Source of the DNA: Flavobacteriales bacterium
Lineage (GTDB): Bacteria; Bacteroidota; Bacteroidia; Flavobacteriales_G; Salibacteraceae
NCBI GenBank assembly: GCA_018660685.1
Contig: JABJJW010000012.1
Span: 248,001-312,000 of the forward strand
Direction: 5' to 3'
Length of the DNA stretch: 64,000 nt
The position numbers and the translations under genes are program-made. The stretch's first letter is position 1. Each line of letters opens with the position of its first letter. A model generated the notes under the pieces. The model searched no databases, was not told where the DNA came from, and saw only the letters and a list, made by a program, of their open reading frames with translations. Below, piece after piece: positions 20,716 to 24,450 of the stretch.

Positions 20716-21916
20716 ATGAAAACTCTACTCAAATCTGGGCTCAGCCTACTCATCCTCTTCGCAGTTGTTGCGCCTTCACTTAAAGCACAAAAAGCAAAAG
20801 CGGAACAAGTTTCATACACCTATTTCCGAAAAGCACTTGTTGCCACCGAGGAAGCGAAAAGAACCTATTCCGTTGAGGTAAATATTCCCTTCGCTGCCAC
20901 CTACAATGCAGACATGGCTAAATACAATGAAGACGAAGGCAGAGCAAGAAGAATACGAAACTGATCGCAGAGCCGCAGAAGACGAATATGCCGCCGCTCT
21001 CGAGGGTTATAATAGTCAAAGCGCAGGAGCCAAAGTTCTGACCGGAGTGATGCTAGGAGATGACGGCAAACCTCAAAAACGGCATGTGACTAAGAGATTT
21101 GTAAAGAAGCCAATGGTTCGTAATGATATTCCATCAGAATCTGAGATTGCTGCTGGTCTGGTCTGGGATGGATTTATGAAAACAGACAATTCCAACTACA
21201 AGGTGATGATGACTATGCCAAATTACAGCGTTACTTTTAAGGATCAAGCGGTCAGCGAAAAGCAATATCGGAGTGCCACCATTTCAGTACCGATTGACAT
21301 GAAAGTTACGGATCCGAGTGGCAAGGTGGTATTTCAAATGTCTTTTGCAGCTCCCCAATACCAACGAACCTATAAGAGTGATAAGATGGCCTCACCGCAA
21401 TTCTCTGAGTTCATCAATGGTTCAGGTTATAATTCTTGGCTGGATCAAAGAAAAATGGACGCCAGGCAAGCGGTTTACACTGCGATGTCTTCAGAACTCA
21501 ACAGCCAGATGGGCTACGGTTGGGTAGATCGTACTGATCCAGTTTACACAGGAAAGGACAAAAAGCAAGATTATTCTGCACAAGAATCAGCACAGTTAAA
21601 GGCGACCCAGGGATTAAAGGACTTGTCAATTTCAGAAGAGTCTGCTAAAGTGAAACTTGGAGAAGCAATGGAAGTGTGGATTTCAGAATTGAAAGATGAA
21701 AATCTAGGTGATAAAAAAGCGCGGATAAACAATAAAGTTGCCGCAGGTCTTTACATCAATGCTGCCTTGGTAAACATTCTTCTTGGAGATCACGCCAAAG
21801 CTGACGAGCTCCTAAATATAGTACAGGGCAATGACGCCTTCAAAGGAGGAGATCAAAAAGAATCTGAAGCCGTTCGAGTCTTCCTTGACGACGAACGTAG
21901 AAGAAAAGATTCTTAA
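20716..21916 (+). pseudogene. Secreted hypothetical protein gene with a +1 frameshift
   Basis: The first frame (20716-20964) encodes a signal peptide (ending PSLKAQ) and mature residues up to ...ATYNADMAKYNED, then runs out of sense (EGRARRIRN, stop). The second frame (20906-21916) lacks a signal peptide and takes up the same protein as KAEQEEYETDRRAAEDEYAA and on for 320 residues. Removing one base in 20929-20938 joins them as YNED-KAEQEEYETD, an even charged helix. The body contains a Glu/Ala-rich helix and a C-terminal region ending DDERRRKDS. It matches no family I recognise. It could be an inactivated gene, a sequencing error or recoding; the sequence alone cannot decide. Only the second frame may be annotated elsewhere. 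Confidence 0.65.
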
Positions 21917-21941: not shown

Positions 21942-23597
21942 TTATCTCAATACTTTTCTCACAAAAGCTACCGAAAAGTAGCCCATAAGAAATACACCGA
22001 CGTATCCTTCAACACTCGCAAACAAGCGCATTATCCCGACCGGATAATACTCGCCATATCCTATCGTGAGAAAGGTAATAGCGCTGTAATAAAATGCCTT
22101 GGCCACTGGATTTAAGGTTGAAAGAATATCTCCGCCACCAGTATCAATGTACGTATCGGCTACCATAGGGAGAAACAAGTACAGCAAGCTAAAGAGTGTA
22201 TAGATTATTGATACCGAGAACAACACCCTAAGAGGTTCGGTGGCGTACAATCCAATCTTGTCAAAAAGAAGCCATTTAAAGAAGGCAGTGGGGTAAGCCC
22301 ACAATGCGCTGGTAGGATTCTTTTCAATTGAATATTCTAAGTCCGACCGAAGCTCAAAGCGCTTGTACCAGATATACGCCCTATCCTCATCAGCATATCT
22401 TCCAGTTGAATTGTAAGTTTCCTTGAGAATTAAGAATTGCTCCGACTTCTGTCGAATTGTTGTTTCCTCCTGCTTTAGAATCAGGTTCAACACGTCATTC
22501 GCATCCCAATCGATGTACAGGTTTCCCAAGTTCCGCATCCCGCTGAAGTTCATTTGATCCAGAGATACGGGACAATGCTCTGTAGGCATCATATCAACGA
22601 TATCCCGAACGATGGTATAAGACAGATCAATTTTTTGTGCCGACTCCACACGCAGATCTACATAGTTGTTGAACTGACATGACTCGAAGGACAGCTTCCG
22701 TACTTGAGCTTGAAAGAACGACAAACTTCCAGTTCCAAATTCTGCATTATCAAATATAAAATCGGATTCTGAAATGCTTTCCTGAAAATTAATCTTTCCA
22801 TCTCCGAAAACCGCAGACCGAAACACAACCTTCCCACTCTTGAAATCGGCTTCAGAAAAATCGATGTCTCCATGTCCAAAATGTGCTCGTTTGAAATCAA
22901 GTTTACCGTGGCCGAAGTCGACTCGTTTGAACGAGACCTCTCCCCCACCGAAGTGCGCTTTGTCGAACGTCAAATTTCCGTCTCCGAACTTGGTGTAATG
23001 GAAGTCAACCTTGCCATCCCCGAAATTCACTTCACGAAAACTTATACGAGATTCTCCAAACACTGAACTAATGAACTGAACATCGCCAGAACCAAATTGA
23101 ACCTTATCGAAGGTGACGGTTGGTGAGTGAAATTCAGCGTATTGAAAATTAGCCGTGCCGGCTCCAAATTGACTGTTTTCAAATGAGGTAGAATCAGTCG
23201 AAAACTTTGCATTATAGAATGACAACGGACCATCCCCAAAAATGCAATCTGAGAAATCAGTTTTTTCACTCGTGAAGTCAGCCAAACTGAAATCAGTCTC
23301 TAATTCACTATCGAAGAAAGCATGATTGGCACTCATGTCCTTCATTTCTACTCTAGCATCAGCCTCCAATCCGCGAGACTCTCTGTACGCGGTCAAAGAG
23401 AAATTTTTAATGTATCGATGATTGAGTTGAATGCTCGTTCCGTCGTCAATTAACTTGTATACCGCTTCCGCTTCAAGCACTCCTAAAGTGTAGTTCTCCT
23501 TTTGCTTTCCGTGTGGATCAGTCAAAGAAACGATCAATGATGAAGGACATCCCTCAAAGGGCTCATCGAGGAAGTTAAGCTGAATTTCTGCAGGCAC
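21942..23597 (-). CDS. 12-residue-repeat solenoid fused to a two-helix K+-channel pore
   Basis: 551 residues in three parts. Residues 1-119 are a soluble N-domain. Residues 120-298 hold thirteen consecutive units of exactly 12 residues (120-275) of the form F-G-x-G-x-[VIL]-x-F-x-x-[AV]-x, for example FGDGNLTFDKAH and FGGGEVSFKRVD, then one 11-residue unit and a final unit. Residues 453-545 form an Ion_trans_2-type pore: outer helix about 453-479, pore helix AKAFYYSAITFL, selectivity filter TIGYGEYYP at 511-519 and inner helix about 527-545. The filter predicts K+ selectivity. The repeats resemble Pentapeptide_3-like sequences, but the 12-residue period does not match a five-residue quadrilateral helix. 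The soluble part between (residues 300-440) is Glu/Arg rich. Its ligand or gating role is unknown. Confidence 0.8.
   Translation of the reverse strand: MPAEIQLNFLDEPFEGCPSSLIVSLTDPHGKQKENYTLGVLEAEAVYKLIDDGTSIQLNHRYIKNFSLTAYRESRGLEADARVEMKDMSANHAFFDSELETDFSLADFTSEKTDFSDCIFGDGPLSFYNAKFSTDSTSFENSQFGAGTANFQYAEFHSPTVTFDKVQFGSGDVQFISSVFGESRISFREVNFGDGKVDFHYTKFGDGNLTFDKAHFGGGEVSFKRVDFGHGKLDFKRAHFGHGDIDFSEADFKSGKVVFRSAVFGDGKINFQESISESDFIFDNAEFGTGSLSFFQAQVRKLSFESCQFNNYVDLRVESAQKIDLSYTIVRDIVDMMPTEHCPVSLDQMNFSGMRNLGNLYIDWDANDVLNLILKQEETTIRQKSEQFLILKETYNSTGRYADEDRAYIWYKRFELRSDLEYSIEKNPTSALWAYPTAFFKWLLFDKIGLYATEPLRVLFSVSIIYTLFSLLYLFLPMVADTYIDTGGGDILSTLNPVAKAFYYSAITFLTIGYGEYYPVGIMRLFASVEGYVGVFLMGYFSVAFVRKVLR
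22704..23240 (-). repeat. 36-bp coding repeat array in the channel gene
   Basis: The DNA coding for residues 120-298 of the channel protein has a 36-bp periodicity. Units are diverged at the DNA level (no two identical), so this is an old array kept by protein selection rather than a recent expansion or a CRISPR-like repeat. Confidence 0.75.
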
Positions 23598-23715: not shown

Positions 23716-24450
23716 TTATTTCTCTGATGAACGATCCTTCTTCTTGCGCATACGCAGATTAAGAACCTCTACCGCCAGAGAAAAGAAGACGGCGAAGTAG
23801 ATATAGCCCTTCGGCACATGCACTTCTTGGAAAGGCAAGCCTTCGACAATGAGCATAAAGCCAATAAGGATCAAAAAGGACAGAGCCAACATTTGAAGCG
23901 TCGGATGATTGTTGATGAATTTGCTGATTCGTTCAGCGAAAATCATCATCACGATGATGGCGATGATAACGGCAGCAATCATTACTGGCAAATCATCGGA
24001 CATTCCCACAGCCGTCAAAATACTGTCAAAGCTGAATACAATATCCAGCAGGACAATCTGAGCGATGATGGAGGCAAAAGCATTTTTCTTGCTCTTTACT
24101 TCTTGTTCGTGTTCAACCCCAGCAACCTTCGCATGAATCTCAGTCGTGCTTTTTGCAAGCAGAAACAGTCCACCGAGCATGAGTATTATGTTCCTACCAG
24201 CAAAACCATAGCCCATGATTGTGAACCATGGGGTGGTTAATCCTATCAACCAAGAAATTCCTGCAAGCATCACAACCCTCACGATGAGTGCGAGAGCCAA
24301 ACCAATAAAACGGGCTTTAGGTTGCTGTTCTTCAGGCAGCCTGTTGGAGACAATTGAAATGAAAATTATGTTGTCAATCCCGAGGACAATCTCTAGGAAT
24401 GTCAACGTTAAAAGTGCTATCCAAGCTTCCGGTTGAAGAAAGATTTCCAC
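23716..24450 (-). CDS. TerC-family integral membrane protein
   Basis: A 244-residue polytopic membrane protein with about seven helices. The TerC hallmarks are ALLTLTFLEIVLGIDNIIFISI (acidic residues E19 and D26 within a helix), VLLDIVFSFDSILTAVGM later on, and the terminal AVEVLNLRMRKKK. Family members (TerC, Alx/YgaW-type, YkoY) are linked to metal homeostasis, especially manganese, and to tellurite resistance; the ion here cannot be read. The start codon is GTG at 24450. It precedes a small lipoprotein gene on the same strand with a 16 bp gap, which may be co-transcribed. Confidence 0.92.
   Translation of the reverse strand: MEIFLQPEAWIALLTLTFLEIVLGIDNIIFISIVSNRLPEEQQPKARFIGLALALIVRVVMLAGISWLIGLTTPWFTIMGYGFAGRNIILMLGGLFLLAKSTTEIHAKVAGVEHEQEVKSKKNAFASIIAQIVLLDIVFSFDSILTAVGMSDDLPVMIAAVIIAIIVMMIFAERISKFINNHPTLQMLALSFLILIGFMLIVEGLPFQEVHVPKGYIYFAVFFSLAVEVLNLRMRKKKDRSSEK

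Follow-up and report, generated by a model that had tools for sequence, protein, structure and literature searches.

The window analysed here, a stretch of 64,000 nucleotides from a Flavobacteriales bacterium, encodes on its minus strand (21942..23597, GTG start) a protein of 551 amino acids in which a K+-type pore is joined to a regular solenoid of 12-residue units. This architecture and the limits of the reading frame, first proposed from the letters alone, were confirmed by the sequence and by Pfam, and they raise the question of what coil such repeats build, whether channels of this design occur elsewhere and how a rod placed before a pore might act on it. The open-access literature yielded no paper describing K+ channels with a pentapeptide domain or other beta-solenoid, and in the 2021 review devoted to pentapeptide repeat proteins (PMC8145042) channels go unmentioned. 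If true, control of a K+ channel's gate by a rod of pentapeptide type would be a gating principle without description in the open-access literature.

Layout of the protein and its pore

Starting from the N-terminus, a cap domain of beta-strands and helices (residues 1-102, 23292..23597, delimited by DSSP of the models) is followed by the Pentapeptide_3-like beta-solenoid (residues 103-330, 22608..23291), a helical linker (residues 331-455, 22233..22607), defined from the 28-sequence family alignment on which all conservation and invariance counts are based, and the TM1, pore helix, filter and TM2 segment (residues 456-551, 21945..22232), all on the minus strand. The cap is the least conserved part, with 45% identity in the close group and 31% to distant relatives. 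The linker carries the motif EQF..LKE....G.Y.DED.AY..FKR and, before TM1, WL.FDK.G.YAT.P.R; its pre-TM1 part is common to other pentapeptide channels.

The assignment of the pore is based on Pfam (Ion_trans_2, E 4.5e-10, 39.7 bits against a cut-off of 22.5), on hydropathy, with maxima near residues 467 and 537 that correspond to TM1 and TM2, and on conservation; Ion_trans_2 is matched by all 28 family members. The selectivity filter TIGYGE (residues 511-516, 22050..22067, minus strand), continued by YYP, is present as first read, and its TxGxG core is invariant across the family: T511, G513 and G515 are kept in 28/28 sequences, while residue 514 is Tyr or Phe and residue 516 Asp or Glu. The chain stops about 36 residues past the filter with RKxLR, also invariant (28/28). 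Judged by the KcsA numbering of two-TM channels, this end probably sits at the inner mouth, which would leave the channel without a C-terminal regulatory domain; a cytoplasmic one of the KirBac/RCK type is absent. In the full-length model, built like the other structure predictions on an alignment of the window protein and two relatives, the pore part is poorly predicted, with a pLDDT of about 30-45.

Repeat period and predicted coil

Periodicity was measured as residue-identity autocorrelation over residues 101-310 at lags 1-39 and compared with 2000 composition shuffles. The values at lags 12, 24 and 36 (0.30, 0.32 and 0.28) exceed the shuffle maximum of 0.18, and a 12-residue period of this strength is far beyond what chance would give. 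The sequence-only reading had described thirteen strict units of the form F-G-x-G-x-[VIL]-x-F-x-x-[AV]-x (residues 120-275, 22773..23240, minus strand). The 12-residue Phe frame is indeed unbroken over this range, with Phe at both Phe positions in almost all thirteen units, but FGxG is strict in only about ten, the units at 132, 156, 180 and 252 departing from the motif at one Gly. Among the 28 relatives, which belong to nine families of the class, the period is kept, the array is nearly constant in length and Phe 127, 139, 151, 163, 175, 187, 199, 211, 235, 247, 259 and 271 are invariant. The unit at 271-281 has 11 residues in the window protein and is one residue longer in 17/17 relatives outside the immediate group; more 12-spaced units are present after it.

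The repeats do not lie outside known families, as Pfam already scores both Pentapeptide_3 (PF13576, 45.3 bits in the whole window protein against a gathering cut-off of 27) and Ion_trans_2 above cut-off. The objection foreseen at the outset, that this might be an ordinary Pentapeptide_3 domain annotated together with Ion_trans_2, is thereby half justified: the domains are recognised, but the predicted coil is unusual and Pentapeptide_3 reaches E 0.01 or better in only 13 of the 28 members. In the genome scan no single stretch matched Pentapeptide_3 at E 0.001, and the window protein has no NCBIfam match above cut-off. Members of the pentapeptide superfamily are defined as having eight or more uninterrupted 5-residue repeats, with four to a coil (PMC8145042), a definition outside which the present repeat falls with its 12 residues and a Phe spacing of 5/7.

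One reading of this 5+7 spacing is a pair of pentapeptide sides of which one is lengthened by the GxG turn, and 24 residues per coil are then predicted; with two extra residues on two of the four sides, one turn would thus take up two 12-residue units (sides 5+7+5+7). The AlphaFold2 model of the solenoid (pLDDT 91.4, pTM 0.85) agrees with this geometry and predicts the stiff regular rod that had been proposed. Its long strands recur at 160, 184, 209, 233, 256, 279 and 301, there are four strand segments per 24 residues, and the strand autocorrelation over residues 111-300 is 0.76 at 24, 0.58 at 12 and 0.42 at 36. By VIA-align, 227/237 residues of HetL (3du1) superpose at 2.9 A on residues 41-344 of the model (Z 18.2), and other right-handed beta-helices reach Z 20.8. 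In this superposition 236 HetL residues span 304 model residues, close to the ratio that would result from each larger predicted coil lying over one 20-residue coil. The solenoid is therefore predicted to be a four-sided beta-helix, probably right-handed to judge from the fit to HetL. Foldseek gave no match to the solenoid at E 1e-3 or better and none to viral structures at E 0.001 or better; pentapeptide proteins were among its best matches, but weakly (6fls best, E 1.4e-2).

A coil unlike the canonical 20-residue pentapeptide one had been anticipated, correctly as far as the difference goes, but with 12 residues per coil where the model gives 24, two units per turn. Were each unit a coil by itself, the solenoid would be narrow, two-sided or triangular, of the small antifreeze type, and would form a new coil class. 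The strict 12-residue period of the sequence agrees with such a coil, and so does the family profile, in which odd-numbered units differ little from even-numbered ones (0.68 at lag 1 and at lag 2; parity test rank 464 of 1716); the asymmetry is overall not significant and appears at position 5 only. At that position hydrophobic residues alternate with charged ones from unit to unit (p 0.002, uncorrected for 12 positions), which argues against the smaller coil together with the strand recurrence every 24 residues, the four segments per 24 and the extent of the HetL superposition. We consider the 12-residue coil very improbable and continue with the 24-residue one.

Distribution, surroundings and charged belt

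The genome holds one copy of the channel gene and three further Ion_trans_2 genes. Within the same family, 15/35 genomes, including that of the query, have a relative; full-length members (38-71% identity) were obtained from 26/395 genomes sampled across the class and represent nine families. An evenly drawn sample of the phylum added no full-length member; its hits were confined to the pore, apart from two repeat matches of the kind that chance would give. The protein family is conserved and apparently unstudied. In one genome the channel gene lies in two frames of 447 and 135 amino acids, split near residue 430-475, which points to a disrupted gene or to a faulty assembly. Four other channel proteins have N-terminal parts that are repeat-like and lack a Pfam match, three of them with a long insert between both TM segments; they are possibly further solenoid channels.

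The channel gene is adjoined by a TerC-type membrane transporter gene (23716-24450, minus strand). TerC-type and threonyl-tRNA synthetase genes stand beside the channel in most near relatives, and no neighbour is common to the more distant members. The order looks inherited, because it is limited to near relatives, and its reading as an operon or partner was rejected, being absent in distant members. In four genomes of one family, a Na+/H+-antiporter-like gene lies next to the channel in opposite orientation. On the plus strand of the window, 20716-21916 holds two overlapping ORFs in different frames, of 82 amino acids (with a signal-peptide-like start) and 336 amino acids; since one relative encodes the same protein in a single open frame, a frameshift or an assembly fault seems to affect the copy in the window. 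A role in anti-phage defence (no PADLOC match) and a phage origin (no match in phage records and viral contigs) were likewise discarded.

Conservation on the outer face of the rod is uneven. Outward positions of units 8-11 have a mean entropy of 1.01 bits against 1.68 in the other solenoid units (Mann-Whitney p 1e-4, an optimistic value because the units were picked after the per-unit data had been seen). Here lies an outward-facing charged belt (residues 211-260, 22818..22967, minus strand) in which K213, K224, K232, D234, K236, R237, K256 and R260 nearly always keep their charge, and which is a candidate binding surface. Possible occupants are an anionic ligand or an acidic partner. The belt may alternatively form a contact between subunits, and its conservation may reflect that contact or salt bridges between coils, not ligand binding.

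Proposed mechanism and comparison with known systems

The preferred reading, which we hold with moderate confidence, is that this is a K+ channel, that a ligand or partner attaches to its cytoplasmic solenoid, probably at the belt 211-260, and that the solenoid influences the gate by way of the pre-TM1 linker. The protein would be a two-transmembrane K+-type channel, expected to form a tetramer, with a large N-terminal beta-solenoid in the cytoplasm, a pentapeptide-type four-sided helix whose coil would have grown from 20 to 24 residues by a GxG turn on two sides. The rod would end in the helical linker and then in the conserved pre-TM1 segment adjoining the inner gate. Binding, most likely at the belt, would shift or dock the rod, and the pore would be opened, closed or localised as a result. 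With all cytoplasmic mass placed N-terminally, the linker and the pre-TM1 motif should be the route by which the pore is regulated. The narrower proposal that an anionic ligand or partner from the cytoplasm binds at the belt and that the rod is a lever on the inner gate through pre-TM1 seems doubtful to us.

The solenoid could alternatively be passive, a scaffold or a domain for assembly or anchoring: it would fix a permanently open K+ channel in position within the cell and take no part in gating. Pentapeptide domains of ubiquitin ligases serve as binding scaffolds (PMC8145042), the protein has no recognisable ligand-binding domain and its chain stops right after TM2, all of which would suit this role. 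The strongly conserved linker and pre-TM1 motif and the near gap-free length of the solenoid suggest mechanical coupling and not a loose tether, and we regard a passive solenoid as possible though unlikely. A pore that does not conduct, in a protein acting as a membrane-anchored solenoid sensor or adaptor, would agree with an open literature search that returned no paper on the function of the family; it is hardly to be expected where the filter, the TM2 glycine G534 and the inner-mouth residues are invariant in 28 members and the pore is the best conserved region inside the close group (83% identity). Under the preferred reading of a channel regulated by its rod, the family would offer a testable case of a K+ channel with its entire regulatory mass in an N-terminal rod.

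A described family with this architecture was not known at the outset, yet pentapeptide repeats joined to Ion_trans_2 are present in haloarchaea (WP_254270413.1 from Halorussus aquaticus, WP_081461395.1 and WP_276282428.1), in Aeromonas caviae and in other Bacteroidota. The annotated haloarchaeal and Aeromonas proteins bear only the name "pentapeptide repeat-containing protein". They share with the window protein N-terminal pentapeptide-type repeats, a linker, the pre-TM1 motif and a TM-P-TM pore stopping just after TM2, so that a homologous pre-TM1 and pore part is joined to an N-terminal pentapeptide-type solenoid; the Aeromonas protein aligns with the family profile over pre-TM1 and pore through the last residue (E 1e-16, 32% identity). 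They differ in their other N-terminal parts, in an identity of 25-32% and in their repeats, which have 11 residues of Pentapeptide_3 type in H. aquaticus (matching over 79% of the query) and are ordinary pentapeptides in the other haloarchaea and A. caviae. Bacteroidota channel proteins elsewhere have ordinary pentapeptides or unclassified N-terminal parts. Pentapeptide-repeat K+ channels are therefore a widespread kind, of which the present family is a form with a larger coil. These channels and the existing Pfam domains weaken the view that the protein is of an unknown kind: pentapeptide-type rods on channels also occur in other microbes, and what remains unusual is the predicted 24-residue coil in a conserved, apparently unstudied family. 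A regular coil of this size (5+7+5+7) would demonstrate that the pentapeptide square tolerates uniform enlargement.

The identical strict 12-residue unit (FSSGTVDFARAE-type) occurs in a long array in the Streptomyces plasmid protein WP_329583145.1 and its relatives. It matches the query with 36% identity over about 208 residues (E 4e-24), has no channel, and among Pfam families only Pentapeptide_3 scores above cut-off in it. The Knotted Solenoid from Brevundimonas (PMC13123833), also considered, has a different fold. HetL (3du1), PENT (6fls), MfpA (2bm7) and AlbG (2xt2) are likewise four-sided right-handed beta-helices with a stacked aromatic core (PMC8145042), the form predicted here. They differ in having 20 residues per coil and 5-residue repeats, and in being soluble and poreless. 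In pore and filter the window protein is like KirBac3.1, KcsA and other two-TM K+ channels. KirBac3.1 is regulated through its C-terminal cytoplasmic domain, whereas in the window protein the mass that is presumably cytoplasmic lies N-terminal to the pore.
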